Of a DNA stretch of 64,000 nucleotides, positions 1,113 through 38,234 are shown piece by piece. The stretch is taken from the NCBI RefSeq assembly GCF_019704555.1, contig NZ_AP024745.1, forward strand, positions 289,001-353,000. Reading direction: 5' to 3'. This DNA comes from Actinoplanes sp. L3-i22 (GTDB lineage Bacteria; Actinomycetota; Actinomycetes; Mycobacteriales; Micromonosporaceae). Position numbers and translations under genes: made by a program. The notes beneath the pieces were generated by a model, which did no database searches, was not told the DNA's origin, and saw only the letters and a list, made by a program, of their open reading frames with translations. Numbering within the stretch: position 1 is the first letter of the stretch; each line of letters opens with the position of its first letter.

Positions 1113-1477
1113 TTCGCGCGTCCGGACCGGGTTATCAAGCGTGCACCTGGGTCGCTGTCGACAGTCCTGGAGCCTGGTGGCGATGATCCCCGTGAAGGCG
1201 GAAGCACCACCTGCGGCTGAGGTCCCGTCGCAACGTGCCTGCCGTGGCTGATCGCGCGTGGGTTCCCGGTGGCCGTGCACGGGGCTCGAACTTCCGGTCA
1301 ACCCGGATCCTCGTTGCCTCCGCGTCTCCTTTTCTACGCCGCTCCCGGCATGATCGCCAGCTTTCAGCGGGGCAAACCTGGCGTACCGCAATTACTCAGA
1401 CCAATGCCATCTGCCCTGGTCATTGCGTTCCGGCCGTTGCATCGCGCCGTAGCACCAGGGCAAATGCAAGATCTTTA
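1113..1477. other. Intergenic stretch without a recognisable gene
   Basis: No frame here has coding character, and the short open frames lack ribosome-binding sites and family motifs. The stretch separates two convergent genes and leads into the dispersed repeat at 1478. Confidence 0.5.
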
Positions 1478-1610
1478 TTGCCTCGGCTGCGGCCAATAAC
1501 TGATCGTCGCTCCCGCGGGGACCCTTCCGGGCTTCGCAGGGCGCTGGCGCGCCCAGAACGCAAAGCCCTCCAGGGCGACGTCCGAGGGTGGTTGCGGTTT
1601 CAAAGGACCC
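1478..1610 (+). repeat. Dispersed non-coding repeat, copy 1
   Basis: First of three copies of a conserved intergenic element; the others are 12849-13014 (reverse) and 28467-28634. All begin TTGCCTCGG after a T-rich run and contain TCGTCGCTCCCGCGGGGACC, then a CAGGGCG block, then a GCCCT-CAGGGCGA inverted segment, ending near AAAGGACCC. Copy 1 has small insertions relative to the others that break every reading frame, so it is not a conserved protein. It lies between convergent genes. Confidence 0.85.
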
Positions 1611-12215: not shown

Positions 12216-12652
12216 TGGCCACGGTTCGGCTGTCCTTCTCGCCGGCGCCGGTGCACGTTCGCACCGCCCGCCTGGTCGGTGTGGCGGTCGCCCGGCGGGC
12301 CGGGGTCGACGAGGCGCTGCTGGACGAGGTGCGCCTGGCGATCGGCGAGGCCTGCACCCGGGCGGTCGCCCTGCACCGGCAGTACGGTCTGACCGATCTT
12401 GTCACGGTTGAGATGTCGGATTCCGGTTCGTACACCGTCCGGGTCATCGACCATGCCCCGATCGAGGCCAGCATCGGCCTGACCAAGCTGCCACCGGACG
12501 AGTTGTCCTCCGAGTCGCTCACCGAGGACGATCTGACGACCGGTGTCGGTTTCGCCCTGCTCGCCGGCTTCGTCGACGACCTCCAGGTGCGCCCGGTCGA
12601 AGACGGCCCAGGCACCGAGGTCTGCATGGTCTGGCCCGTCACCCGCCGCTAA
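12212..12652 (+). CDS. RsbW/ApgA-like anti-sigma factor (HATPase fold)
   Basis: A 146-residue protein coupled to bldG. GTG 12212 or ATG 12215 are both possible. The fold is the GHKL type, with N-box region [14 protein letters not shown] near residue 50 and G-box [15 protein letters not shown] near 115. In active RsbW-type kinases the N-box has Asn where this protein has Arg (EACTRA instead of EACTNA), so Mg-ATP binding and kinase activity may be impaired. By context it is the partner of BldG, equivalent to SCO3548. The target sigma factor is not identified. Confidence 0.85.
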
Positions 12653-12848: not shown

Positions 12849-13014
12849 GCGCGGCTGGGCCGGAAGTCGCCGCCGGCTTGCGCGGGTCCTTTTAAACCGC
12901 AACCCCCCACGGACATCGCCCTGGAGGGTTTTGCGTTCTGGGCGCCCCGCGCCCTGCAAAGCCCGCAAGGGTCCCCGCGGGAGCGACGATCTGTACCCCG
13001 GCGGACCGAGGCAA
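12849..13014 (-). repeat. Dispersed non-coding repeat, copy 2
   Basis: Reverse-oriented copy of the element at 1478-1610 and 28467-28634. The core is 12884-13014, and similarity with copy 3 continues to about 12849 (GCCCAGCCGCGC on the minus strand). It lies between two genes of the same direction, upstream of the hppA promoter. Confidence 0.85.
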
Positions 13015-13230
13015 AAAAGATCTTCAGGGTGAAAGCCCGCCCCCAGCGGCGCGCGAGCAAAGATGATCTCCCACTTCGCCCCTATCCTCAATTCCGGCAT
13101 TTCGCCAAATTTCCGAATGGTTGTGCGAGGCCGTGGCCCACCAGGCAAAAGATCAACCGCTCCGGATGCCCCAGCCGGGCGCCTGGCTAACACAGCGGTG
13201 AACATCATCGCGACACGGCCGGGTCGCCGT

Positions 13231-13388: not shown

Positions 13389-15791
13389 ATGTCCGGGACC
13401 TCACTAAACCTCGCCGCCGAAGGCGGCGGAGTGTCCCTCAGCGGATCCAACGTCGTATTCGTCATCGTCGCTCTGGTGTTCGCCCTGATCGCGCTGGGCT
13501 TCGCCGCGATGTTCGTCCAGTCGGTGCTGCGCGCCGGCCGGGGCACCAAGAGCATGCAGGAGATCGCCGGCGCCGTGCAGGAAGGCGCGTCGGCCTATCT
13601 CTTCCGGCAGTTCAAGACGCTCGCCGTGTTCGTGGTGATCGCGGTCGTGCTGCTGTTCCTGTTGCCGGTGCACGACACCGACAACGAGACCTGGGTGAAG
13701 ATCGGAAGATCGCTCTTCTTCATCGTCGGAGCGGTGTTCAGCTCGTTCATCGGCGGCGCCGGTATGGCTCTGGCGACGCGCGCCAACCTCCGGGTGGCCG
13801 CGGCGGCGGGTGAGCCCGGCGGTCGCGAGACCGCGATGGGCATCGCCTTCCGCACCGGCGGTGTGGTCGGCTTCCTCACCGTGGGTCTGGGACTGTTCGG
13901 CGGCGCCCTGGTGGTGCTGATCTTCACCACCGACGCACCGACCGTGCTGGAGGGCTTCGGCTTCGGCGCCGCGCTGCTCGCGATGTTCATGCGGGTCGGC
14001 GGCGGCATCTTCACCAAGGCCGCGGATGTCGGCGCCGACCTGGTCGGCAAGGTCGAGCAGGGCATTCCGGAGGACGACCCGCGCAACCCGGCGACGATCG
14101 CCGACAACGTGGGCGACAACGTCGGCGACTGTGCCGGCATGGCCGCCGACCTGTTCGAGTCGTACGCGGTGACCCTGGTCGCCGCCCTGATCCTGGGCCA
14201 GGTCGCGTTCGGCCAGGACGGCCTGATCTTCCCGCTGATCGTCTCCACGATCGGTGTGGTGATCGCGATCCTGGGCGTCTTCATCACCCGGCTGCGCCCG
14301 TCCGACCGCAACGGCCTGACCGCGATCAACCGGGCGTTCTACATCTCCGCCGTGGTGTCGGCGGTCGCGGTGGCCGTGGTCACCTTCCTCTACCTGCCGG
14401 ACACCTTCGCCGGGTTCGGCGACGCGGGGATCGACAAGGGCGTGATCGCCAGCGGGCAGAACCCGCAGTTCGTGGCGATCGGCGCGGTGGTCATCGGGAT
14501 CGTGCTGGCCGCCGCCATCCAGGCGCTGACCGGCTACTTCACCGAGACCAACAAGCGTCCGGTGCAGGACATCGGCAAGTCGTCGGCGACCGGCGCGGCG
14601 ACCGTGGTGCTGGCCGGCATCAGCGTCGGCCTGGAGTCCGCGGTCTACTCGGCGCTGCTGATCGGCGCCGGCGTGTACGGCGCGTTCCTGCTCGGCGGCA
14701 CGTCGCTGACCCTGTCGCTGTTCGCGGTGGCGCTGGCCGGCACCGGCCTGCTCACCACGGTCGGCGTCATCGTCGCGATGGACACGTTCGGCCCGATCTC
14801 GGACAACGCGCAGGGCATCGCGGAGATGTCCGGTGACGTCGACGAGAAGGGCGCGCAGATCCTGACCGAGCTCGACGCGGTGGGCAACACCACCAAGGCG
14901 ATCACCAAGGGCATCGCGATCGCGACGGCCGTGCTGGCCGCCACGGCGCTGTTCGGGTCGTACACGAACAGCCTGGTCAGCTCGCTGACCGACGCCAAGG
15001 TCGCGGATGTGCAGGGCGAGATCTACCAGCTGCTGAACATCGCGAACCCGCGCAGCCTGGTCGGCCTGCTGATCGGCGCGGCGGTGGTGTTCCTCTTCTC
15101 CGGTCTGGCGATCAACGCGGTGTCCCGCTCGGCGGGCGCGGTGGTCATGGAGGTGCGCCGGCAGTTCCGGGAGCACCCCGGGATCATGGACCGCACCGAG
15201 CGGCCGGAGTACGGCCGGGTCGTCGACATCTGCACCCGGGACGCGCAGCGCGAGCTGCTCACACCCGGTCTGCTGGCGATCCTGGCGCCGATCGCGGTCG
15301 GTTTCGGACTGGGCGCGGGCGCGCTGGCGGCGTACCTGGCCGGCGCGATCGGCACCGGCACGCTGATGGCGGTCTTCCTGGCCAACTCCGGTGGGGCCTG
15401 GGACAACGCCAAGAAGCTGGTCGAGGACGGCGCCTACGGTGGCAAGGGCTCCGAGGCGCACGCGGCCACGGTCATCGGCGACACCGTCGGTGACCCGTTC
15501 AAGGACACCGCCGGCCCGGCCATCAACCCGCTGCTCAAGGTGATGAACCTGGTCTCGCTGCTGATCGCCCCGGCCGTCGTGACCTGGAGCATCGGCGCCG
15601 ACGCGAACACCCCGTTGCGGGTGACCATCGCGCTGGTGGCGTTCGCGATCGTGGCCGCCGCGGTGGTCTGGAGCAAGAGCAAGGCGATCTCGATGGGCGA
15701 CGATCCGACGGAGGCGGCCGCGGCCGGCGCCTCGGACACCGCCCGTGCCGCGCAGGAGGAACAGGCGCGGATCAAGGACAACGTGGGCTGA
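13389..15791 (+). CDS. hppA: Membrane proton-translocating pyrophosphatase
   Basis: An 800-residue integral membrane pump coupling pyrophosphate hydrolysis to H+ export, with about 16 membrane helices. The substrate site has the GADLVGKVE motif (near residue 218), the DDPRNPATIADNVGDNVGD acidic stretch and a C-terminal NSGGAWDNAKK. GNTTKAITKG carries Lys at the position that distinguishes K+-independent enzymes, which have Lys instead of Ala. ATG 13389 follows an AGGAGG site. The position after bldG and its anti-sigma partner is conserved in Streptomyces. Confidence 0.95.
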   Translation: MSGTSLNLAAEGGGVSLSGSNVVFVIVALVFALIALGFAAMFVQSVLRAGRGTKSMQEIAGAVQEGASAYLFRQFKTLAVFVVIAVVLLFLLPVHDTDNETWVKIGRSLFFIVGAVFSSFIGGAGMALATRANLRVAAAAGEPGGRETAMGIAFRTGGVVGFLTVGLGLFGGALVVLIFTTDAPTVLEGFGFGAALLAMFMRVGGGIFTKAADVGADLVGKVEQGIPEDDPRNPATIADNVGDNVGDCAGMAADLFESYAVTLVAALILGQVAFGQDGLIFPLIVSTIGVVIAILGVFITRLRPSDRNGLTAINRAFYISAVVSAVAVAVVTFLYLPDTFAGFGDAGIDKGVIASGQNPQFVAIGAVVIGIVLAAAIQALTGYFTETNKRPVQDIGKSSATGAATVVLAGISVGLESAVYSALLIGAGVYGAFLLGGTSLTLSLFAVALAGTGLLTTVGVIVAMDTFGPISDNAQGIAEMSGDVDEKGAQILTELDAVGNTTKAITKGIAIATAVLAATALFGSYTNSLVSSLTDAKVADVQGEIYQLLNIANPRSLVGLLIGAAVVFLFSGLAINAVSRSAGAVVMEVRRQFREHPGIMDRTERPEYGRVVDICTRDAQRELLTPGLLAILAPIAVGFGLGAGALAAYLAGAIGTGTLMAVFLANSGGAWDNAKKLVEDGAYGGKGSEAHAATVIGDTVGDPFKDTAGPAINPLLKVMNLVSLLIAPAVVTWSIGADANTPLRVTIALVAFAIVAAAVVWSKSKAISMGDDPTEAAAAGASDTARAAQEEQARIKDNVG

Positions 15792-27237: not shown

Positions 27238-28293
27238 ATGAGAATTGGTCGCATCGCCGCGTTCCTCGCGGTCAGCCTTGCCGTGGCCGGCTCCGCACCG
27301 GCCAGCGCCCACCCGTCCCCCGCCCACGACGACGGCTCGCTGCGGGCCGCCGCGCACGGCTCCGGCGTGCGGATCGGCACCGCGGTCGACATGGCCGCGC
27401 TCGCCGCAGACGCCCCCTACCAGGCCGCGGTGGCCCGCGAGTTCGACACGGTCACCCCGGAGAACGTGATGAAGTGGGAGGTCGTCGAGCCACAGCCCGG
27501 CGTCTACGACTGGACCGCCGCCGACCGGCTCGTCGACTTCGCGCGGAAGAACGGGCAGCTCGTCCGCGGCCACACCCTGGTCTGGCACAGCCAGAACCCG
27601 GCCTGGCTGACCGAGGCCGCGTACACCCCCGCACAATTGCGGGTCCTGCTGCGCAAACACATCTTCGACGAGGTCGGCCATTTCAAAGGCCGGGTCTGGG
27701 CGTGGGACGTCGCGAATGAGATCTTCAACGACGACGGCACGCTCCGCGACACGATCTGGCTGCGCGCGCTCGGCCCGGACTACATCGCCGACGCATTCCG
27801 CTGGGCGCACCAGGCCGACCCCAAGGCGCTGCTGTTCCTCAACGATTACAACAACGAGGGCGTGAACGCGAAGAGCGATGCCTACTATGCGCTGACGAAA
27901 CGGTTGCGCGCGGCCGGCGTCCCGGTGCAGGGTTACGGCATGCAGGGCCACCTCGGCGTGCAATACGGCTTCCCCGGCGACGTCCTGGAAAATGTCCGCC
28001 GATTCGACCAGCTCGGCGTCTCGACCGCGTTCACCGAAGTCGACGTGCGGATGGTGTTGCCGCCGGACACCGCAAAGGTGCAGGCCCAGGCCGAGGGATT
28101 CGGATTGCTCCTGCGAGCCTGCCTGATCGTGAAGCATTGTGTGTCGTACACGGTGTGGGGATTCACCGACAAGTATTCGTGGGTGCCGGGCTTCTTCGAC
28201 GGCCAGGGATCGGCGACCCCGCTCGACGAGAATCTGCAGCCGAAACCGGCTTATGACACGCTTCGGGAGACCTTCCTGCTGGTCCGGCGCTGA
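27238..28293 (+). CDS. Endo-1,4-beta-xylanase, GH10
   Basis: A 351-residue secreted enzyme. Signal peptide RIGRIAAFLAVSLAVAGSA ends near ASA at residue 24. The single GH10 barrel has FDTVTPENVMKWE, the GHTLVWHSQ strand, the acid/base Glu161 in WDVANEIF and the nucleophile Glu267 in FTEVDVRM. VWGFTDKYSW closes the site. It cuts xylan backbones outside the cell. No carbohydrate-binding module is attached. ATG 27238 has GGAGG. A hairpin terminator follows. Confidence 0.94.
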   Translation: MRIGRIAAFLAVSLAVAGSAPASAHPSPAHDDGSLRAAAHGSGVRIGTAVDMAALAADAPYQAAVAREFDTVTPENVMKWEVVEPQPGVYDWTAADRLVDFARKNGQLVRGHTLVWHSQNPAWLTEAAYTPAQLRVLLRKHIFDEVGHFKGRVWAWDVANEIFNDDGTLRDTIWLRALGPDYIADAFRWAHQADPKALLFLNDYNNEGVNAKSDAYYALTKRLRAAGVPVQGYGMQGHLGVQYGFPGDVLENVRRFDQLGVSTAFTEVDVRMVLPPDTAKVQAQAEGFGLLLRACLIVKHCVSYTVWGFTDKYSWVPGFFDGQGSATPLDENLQPKPAYDTLRETFLLVRR

Positions 28294-28346: not shown

Positions 28347-28466
28347 TCTCCGTCTCCGTCGCGGCCCGCTTCCGGATTTCCCGCGCTTCTGCCTTCTCGC
28401 GCCCCCCGGCTTTCTTGGGCTTCCGGCTTTCCTGCCTTCGGCGATTTCAGAGAGTCAAATTCTTCA

Positions 28467-28634
28467 TTGCCTCGGTCCGCTGGGGTACAGATCGTCGCTC
28501 CCGCGGGGACCCTTCCGGGCCTCGCAGGGCGCGGGGCGCCCAAAACGCGAGGCCCTACAGGGCGACGTCCGAGGGCGGGCACGGTTCAAAAGAACCCACG
28601 CAACCCGCCGCCCGGGTCAAGGCCCAGCCGCGCC
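28467..28634 (+). repeat. Dispersed non-coding repeat, copy 3
   Basis: Same orientation as copy 1. The core runs 28467-28597, and similarity to copy 2 continues to the holB stop at 28635. It again lies between convergent genes. The 28347-28466 stretch before it is T-rich at its end and holds no gene. Confidence 0.85.
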
Positions 28635-38160: not shown

Positions 38161-38234
38161 GCCGCCTTAGCTCAGTCGGCTAGAGCGACGCACTCGTAAT
38201 GCGTAGGTCGACGGTTCGATTCCGTCAGGCGGCT
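38161..38234 (+). tRNA. tRNA-Thr (anticodon CGT)
   Basis: A complete 74-base cloverleaf. Acceptor GCCGCCT pairs with AGGCGGC (38227-38233) and the discriminator is T. The D arm contains CTCAGTCGG. The anticodon stem ACGCA/TGCGT holds loop CTCGTAA with CGT at 38195-38197, and the T arm has GGTTCGATTCC. It decodes ACG codons. CCA is not encoded. A strong terminator follows directly. Confidence 0.96.

Follow-up and report, generated by a model that had tools for sequence, protein, structure and literature searches.

A repeat at three junctions

What kind of element is a non-coding repeat that occurs three times in 64 kb of an Actinoplanes chromosome: a device at the ends of genes, a small RNA, a site that organizes the chromosome, or a mobile element? 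The window (the whole stretch of DNA analysed, 64,000 nt) spans positions 289001-353000 of contig C1 in genome G000, a one-contig genome of 12,014,766 bases (12.01 Mb). The answer favoured here, with a probability of about one half (0.48), is a non-autonomous mobile element that carries a strand-specific hairpin and recurrently enters the same tolerant junctions; for this reading we infer both the mobility and its mechanism.

An earlier note on this DNA had described three copies with a common core. All three are where it placed them and the core aligns; its boundaries need adjustment, as the starts fall some 11 bases inside the core and two ends reach into the tail. The core of copy 1 lies at 1467..1602 (+; 146.4 bits with the covariance model described below), and carries 5' block type A (CTGCGGCCAATAACT); its convergent neighbours end at 1066 (+) and 1863 (-). 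Copy 2, at 12892..13025 (-; 139.9 bits; block type B, TCCGCCGGGGTACA), lies between tandem + strand genes, one ending at 12652 and the other starting at 13431, and is antisense to both. Copy 3, at 28456..28589 (+; 146.4 bits; type B), again has convergent neighbours, ending at 28293 (+) and 28635 (-), and is followed by a 3' tail, 28590..28634 (+), with the GGCCCAGCCGCGCCTC motif. Gene context comes from our own coding-potential gene caller, a simple script; in the window it agrees with the two convergent settings and the one near a promoter region that had been proposed. Length changes of 1 nt at the hairpin tip are in line with the claim that coding does not constrain the repeat. Two known RNAs also lie in the window: a 6C RNA at 2898-2970 (+; RF01066, 62.9 bits against a gathering threshold of 47), a known actinobacterial motif, and a tRNA gene at 38161-38234 (+; Rfam, 71 bits).

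The conserved core measures about 135 nt; it contains several helices and is built around hairpin P3-P5. The order of parts is a start (AAGATCAANTTC..TTGCC), a 5' block, the best-conserved stretch (CGTCGCTCCCGCGGGGACC and variants), P3-P4-P5, the segment CGTCCGNGGGTGGNNNCGG, which may form a further hairpin, P6, and a variable tail. The 5' block, about 20 nt long, falls into discrete types. G000 copies have CTGCGGCCAATAACT or TCCGCCGGGGTACA, A. cyaneus copies CTCCGCTGTGGTCCG, those of G010, G035 and G216 TCCGCGCTGATCACT, and many others GCGGGGTGGTGGGTACA. The tail type with GGCCCAGCCGCGCCTC is carried by 26 of 68 G000 copies and, at a different offset, by a single copy among the 54 of the A. 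cyaneus set.

Size and distribution of the family

The expectation of a genome-wide family is amply borne out. The 25-mer GATCGTCGCTCCCGCGGGGACCCTT, allowing at most 3 mismatches, occurs in the whole of G000 at 95 forward and 99 reverse sites (194 core sites, far more than the three in the window); the same 25-mer read backwards, as a control, occurs at none. Neither of the findings proposed as decisive against a family, a total of only three copies or a perfect match to an annotated transposon end, refutes it. A DNA search of G000 with the repeat returned at least 40 matches at 90-100% identity, from 215 first-look candidates. With covariance model R1 (135 positions, 33 pairs, built from 77 copies), all of the 150 best candidates scored in G000 match, the worst at E 1.7e-28.

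In other genomes the 25-mer matches 9 of 35 of the same genus and none of 24 of other genera. An exact 22-mer scan of named genomes matched Actinoplanes cyaneus NBRC 14990 in 49 stretches and A. liguriensis NRRL B-16723 in 2, 51 in all. Model R1, run over 200 genomes of the bacterial family with 16 candidates scored in each, matches 33 at E <= 1e-4: at this depth 30 of 36 listed same-genus genomes (G000 included) are positive and 6 have no match, and outside the genus there are weak matches in 3 genomes of two other genera (E 1e-5 to 1e-7). Where 150 candidates were scored in each, there are at least 87 matches in G035, 41 in G022, 64 in G010 and 96 in G216; between congeners, copy number runs from 0 to about 200. 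The analysis confirms that folded, non-coding DNA elements of this kind form a large family in Actinoplanes, a genus of soil bacteria, where they lie mostly between gene ends.

The samples used below differ in composition. The A. cyaneus set consists of exact 22-mer matches and is therefore biased toward conserved copies; it includes the A. liguriensis copy L104 in the mosaic and shared-junction analyses, and the arm-linkage analysis omits L104 and L109. Alignment A2 holds 39 G000 copies, one of G022 (L069, counted as G000), 30 of A. cyaneus and 7 others, with eight rows common to A3. One intermediate G000 set lacked copies with identical cores (51 as against 68); the shared-junction and later analyses were keyed by flanks.

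Some matches depart from the common type. Model scores in G035, G022 and G216 split into those above about 85 bits and those of about 54-70 bits, which suggests coexisting subfamilies; at G035:208777 a divergent type occupies the junction where G000 carries the common one. A weak homologue in another genus (L197, genome G146) has the conserved flanks and a short stem, without the P5 tip.

A hairpin under selection

Selection acts on the pairing of hairpin P3-P5. The covariation test drew on 33 genomes, which gave 85 model hits, 81 of them distinct, in an alignment fitted to the model. Among the 85 hits, 86.6% of cells pair, against 73.1 in shuffles; double changes were seen in 21 of 33 pairs against 16.4, mainly in P3-P5, and in 300 cells against 95, with slid controls far lower. 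Helices P1 and P2 covary little and are tentative. Compensatory changes of this sort are those by which a structured RNA is recognized, and they would look the same in RNA or in single-stranded DNA.

A further test, free both of phylogeny and of model fitting, comes from copies within one genome. Sites more than 15 apart are nearly independent there (median r2 0.016 among 53 A. cyaneus copies, 0.019 among 68 of G000); the copies are thus nearly freely recombined, so that linkage between the arms tests the structure without phylogeny. Within single genomes, sites in the arms of P4 are linked with r2 of 1.00 (four site pairs) and 0.93; the other distant pairs listed at the top ranks for G000 fall within columns 2-30, in the 5' part.

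Which strand folds

Tolerated mispairs, counted as species-by-pair events, differ between the helices. P3 and P4 together show 47 A.C and 2 G.U; P1, P2 and P6 show 84 G.U and 38 A.C, a lean toward wobble on the sense strand; P5 shows 1 of each. An A.C on one strand is a G.U on the other, and by this mark selection seems to act on the P3-P4 hairpin as folded from the antisense (bottom) strand, whether RNA or single-stranded DNA. Opposite wobble signs among helices are not what an element-wide mutation bias would produce. The pattern appears in every gene context, with A.C:G.U cells of 58:0 at convergent junctions, 14:0 at -/-, 17:1 at +/+ and 5:0 at divergent ones.

In the window, the P3-P4-P5 hairpin of copy 1 is accordingly drawn on the strand that tolerates G.U pairing, at 1523..1575 (-), an antisense match to model positions 55-107 with the wobble pattern of the family. 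That of copy 2, again an antisense match to positions 55-107, lies on the element's antisense strand at 12919..12970 (+); that of copy 3, read from the sequence with the model-alignment columns, does so at 28511..28561 (-). As whole sequences the three window copies fold barely better than shuffles (z -0.19 to -2.72).

The strand signature could stem from antisense RNA, which would count against mobility: a multicopy family of small RNAs, each copy yielding a folded bottom-strand transcript, would show A.C on the sense strand as G.U on the antisense, in the observed 47 to 2. The mean folding z-score over 152 sequences, with 20 shuffles each, leans the same way (-2.74 antisense, -1.91 sense). 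Mean folding energy, however, is equal on the two strands, and the antisense is the more stable in 76 of the 152; P1, P2 and P6 lean toward wobble on the sense strand; the antisense side, inspected by eye, shows nothing conserved that resembles a promoter; and Rfam gives no credible match to the copies, with nothing at the gathering threshold and only E 4.5 at a relaxed level. Such an RNA family is improbable. The earlier guess of a structured RNA thus survives in the pairing of the central hairpin, which is well supported, and falters as an RNA gene, given the near-even orientation at tandem junctions (12 sense, 8 antisense in G000).

Under the mobile-element reading the signature takes another meaning. 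Whatever its neighbours do, the hairpin is apparently read on the antisense strand; this suggests that, as the element is copied, the hairpin is recognized as a folded nucleic acid, either single-stranded DNA or RNA.

Placement between genes

Among copies with both neighbouring genes called, the convergent share is 44 of 66 for G000, 29 of 50 for the A. cyaneus set and 48 of 80 for the remaining genomes (p 7e-17, 2e-9 and 1e-15 against a background of 0.193). The background shares are from G000 only, where 124 junctions measure 60 bp or more, 19 of them convergent, and convergent junctions make up 19% of intergenic length. Divergent junctions are rarely occupied (2 of 66, 3 of 50 and 4 of 80), and that many copies lie behind a co-directional gene follows mostly from the convergent preference.

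The main rival to mobility takes its start here. It supposes old functional gene-end elements, whose RNA fold would separate convergent transcripts by termination, pausing or 3' protection, with sites inherited and copies homogenized within species by gene conversion. The convergent preference speaks for it, as do the linked hairpin arms, the conservation of the core where flanks are unalignable, and the arrangement of close pairs in G000, 5 of 5 of them tail-to-tail. Against it, the ratio of sense to antisense at tandem junctions is near even: 12:8 in G000, 11:7 in the A. cyaneus set and 13:15 elsewhere, 36 to 30 in total. The P3-P4 wobble, moreover, marks in all contexts a strand that the neighbours need not transcribe. 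A sense-strand role in the 3'-UTR, once favoured, is weakened by the same two observations. Displacement of U-tract terminators by the element was rejected as well: these terminators are commoner at junctions with the element (25 of 121) than at element-free ones (7 of 98), which also tells against the gene-end reading, as does the lack of a match in 6 of the 36 listed genus genomes. Weighing these with the evidence of shared junctions below, we regard a gene-end function as doubtful, though it keeps a real share of the probability.

Two other gene-end signals were considered and dropped: GATCAA as a general signal, present at only 5 of the 121 gene ends in a 250-kb part of G000, and a C-rich Rho-type stretch, to which its profile gave no clear support. 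At L219:1347-1666 (genome G237), two facing copies lie on either side of a perfect U-tract hairpin terminator, a feature seldom met at copies elsewhere.

Over the chromosome, the spread in G000 is uneven, denser toward the presumed origin: 20 of the 150 best matches fall in 4-8 Mb, where 50 are expected (p 3e-8), and in G035, among the matches listed, 7 of 48 fall in the middle third (p 0.005). A chromosome-organizing or segregation site, the third guess of the earlier note, might be distributed in this way. Against it, the 150 best matches in G000 show no replication-strand bias (82 of 150, p 0.29, with the origin assumed at position 0), congeners carry from 0 to about 200 copies, and a duplex binding site would not predict selection on pairing; this guess is very improbable.

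Shared junctions, inheritance and mosaics

Among 204 located copies there are 48 cross-species pairs with both neighbours orthologous and the same orientation, and 21 with the opposite orientation; many of these 21 (of 69) come from junctions that hold two facing copies. A comparison of 240 kb of G035 with the syntenic 250 kb of G000 places 4 of 4 G035 elements at G000 element junctions, and 6 of 10 G000 elements have no model match there. G035 has an element at the junction of window copy 3; at that of copy 1 it has a remnant at best. At two junctions G000 has element-sized extra DNA and G035 none. One is a copy-bearing stretch of 347 bp, G000 401520-401866, that starts at the stop codon of the upstream gene and is absent from G035; a copy at 236.4 kb is likewise without counterpart. 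Inspected by eye, the 347-bp stretch shows no terminal inverted repeats at its two termini, which are provisional as ends of the element, and no target duplication was seen at this single site; at other sites the flanks have diverged.

Occupation of the same junctions in several species, and the 4 of 4, are as gene-end elements would have it, and so is the constancy in close species: G029 and G030 keep copies in position and sequence (0.86-0.96). G216, G010 and G022 have copies at one junction that agree with each other at 0.89-0.92; the G216 and G022 copies are less like their own paralogs (0.77, 0.62). In these close species the likeness looks like plain inheritance, and, with the four G035 elements, it counts against mobility. 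Between G000 and A. cyaneus the relation is reversed: copies that share a junction have identity 0.66-0.76, ranking 4 to 50 of 54 and in one pair 48 of 68, whereas the same copies are 0.79-0.89 identical to their own paralogs. By this comparison, element sequences in G000 and A. cyaneus are species-specific.

Strict site inheritance was favoured on the strength of shared junctions, then weakened by the distance from stop codon to element, generally unconserved at shared junctions, which also tells against gene-end elements: in 41 shared-junction pairs the median difference is 28 nt, against 40 at random (p 0.12), and 4 pairs agree within 6 nt where 5.2 are expected. Species thus appear to have junctions in common, but mostly not insertion points.

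Copies in both high-copy genomes are mosaics. In G000, r2 falls from 0.51 at 1-3 bp to 0.03-0.05 beyond 25 bp, with short-range linkage mainly in the 5' block, and 86-91% of site pairs beyond 50 bp show all four gametes; A. cyaneus is similar. Recurrent insertion at preferred junctions, with exchange between copies, would account for most of these evolutionary patterns. Inheritance with gene conversion may account for them too, as the intergenic DNA between these species is near unalignable.

Two further kinds of repetition were seen in this comparison. G035 has a second palindromic repeat type, CTGGCACCCACGGTGGT..ACCACC..GACCAGCC, at G035:C1 ~355500-355790 and at the junctions of window copy 2 and of G000 396589, with several tandem units where G000 holds the element or other DNA. 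At G000:C1:195788-197728, matches to G035 are staggered in steps of about 276 bp, as if a gene or region contained internal tandem repeats.

How the element might move

In the preferred reading, the family would consist of non-autonomous miniature intergenic elements, with a core of about 135 nt and often a tail, that repeatedly enter the same tolerant junctions, chiefly between convergent genes, and swap short blocks; repeated entry and block exchange would together give each high-copy species its own set. A single-stranded intermediate and an enzyme would be parts of the mechanism, and any benefit to the host, for example in keeping convergent transcripts apart, would be secondary. The wide variation of copy number in the genus supports this (at least 41-96 in four genomes; 0 in 6 of 36 listed). 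Also in its favour are the preference for convergent junctions, the near-even orientation at tandem ones, the extra DNA at two G000 junctions, the unconserved stop distances, the 21 of 69 shared-junction pairs in opposite orientation, the mosaics and the P3-P4 mispairs. Of the three guesses in the earlier note, the non-autonomous element fits best, its movement being deduced and not directly seen: sharp ends, terminal inverted repeats and target duplication are not established and no strain-level gain was seen, which counts against mobility.

Candidate mobilizers were sought in two enzyme families and among recurring neighbours, and none was found, which also counts against mobility. The Y1 transposase family PF01797 is absent from the copy-rich genomes G000, G035, G022 and G216; it is present in G010 and G014, and in 15 of 60 genus genomes overall. 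Reverse transcriptase (PF00078) has one match in G000 and is absent from the element-bearing G010, G022, G001, G234 and G204. Since G022, with at least 41 copies, has neither, neither a Y1 (RAYT-type) transposase nor a reverse transcriptase is needed; a RAYT/REP system and a retroelement (group II intron, retron) were rejected on these absences. An autonomous partner in the flanks was set aside as well, the same-genome neighbour matches being few and none recurrent (the highest-ranked one pairs A. liguriensis L104, mislabelled, with A. cyaneus), and so was carriage by phage or plasmid, with no plasmid or phage match; seven pattern hits in viral contigs reached a best E of only 0.0096 with the covariance model. 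A bolder version of the mobile-element reading, rather unlikely as a whole, is that copies spread through a folded bottom-strand nucleic acid, without Y1 transposase or reverse transcriptase, by a class of enzyme not yet linked to such repeats, and swap discrete 5' blocks of about 20 nt.

Relation to known repeats

Nearest in behaviour among known kinds, by analogy of description, would be BOX, RUP and SPRITE of Streptococcus pneumoniae and ERIC of enterobacteria. As portrayed in the relevant passages of PMC3049150, the pneumococcal repeats are high-copy, non-coding, folded, mostly shorter than 200 bp and enriched between convergent genes, and BOX is modular and sometimes provides stop codons. 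The Actinoplanes element is likened to them by description: it too is high-copy, folded, non-coding and enriched at convergent genes, but it is G+C-rich, has a covariation-supported hairpin and species-wide mosaics, and shows no boxB-type tandem modules. ERIC (IRU, RU-1), at 127 bp intergenic, folded and high in copy, carries inverted repeats at its termini and shows TA target duplications in the account excerpted from PMC2229807; the Actinoplanes element is of similar length, but neither feature was found at its provisional ends.

REP repeats, in the parts of PMC3733652 drawn on, are high-copy, folded sequences of 20-40 bp downstream of genes and at convergent junctions, the GTAG types tied to RAYT genes and the CGTC types not; the Actinoplanes core is much longer, with several helices, and G000 has no Y1 transposase match. 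STAR repeats of staphylococci are interspersed intergenic repeats that, in the comparison across the genus excerpted from PMC3532100, differ in location by species while loci keep distinct sequences; in Actinoplanes, species have junctions in common and copies within a high-copy genome resemble each other. MITEs are A+T-rich, whereas ten G000 copies have G+C of 0.65-0.69. Integron attC sites, which are marked by R'/R'' boxes and cassette arrays, came into view because of the bottom-strand hairpin at gene ends; the copies here are dispersed and form no arrays.

The repeat, non-coding and intergenic passages of the SE50/110 genome paper mention no such family (PMC3364876), and the portion of PMC7516140 on terminators in an Actinoplanes vector has no bearing on the element. 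No description of the family was listed in searches of the open-licence PMC literature; subscription papers were outside the search.

Implications

The family adds a genus-wide, high-copy repeat constrained by pairing to a G+C-rich lineage of natural-product bacteria, and the linkage of hairpin arms within a genome provides a test of structure, free of phylogeny, of a kind that is rare. If the strand signature reflects a folded single-stranded intermediate, the mobilizer would be something other than RAYT or reverse transcriptase. Should the copies act between convergent genes, they would offer ready-made sites for studying transcript collision.
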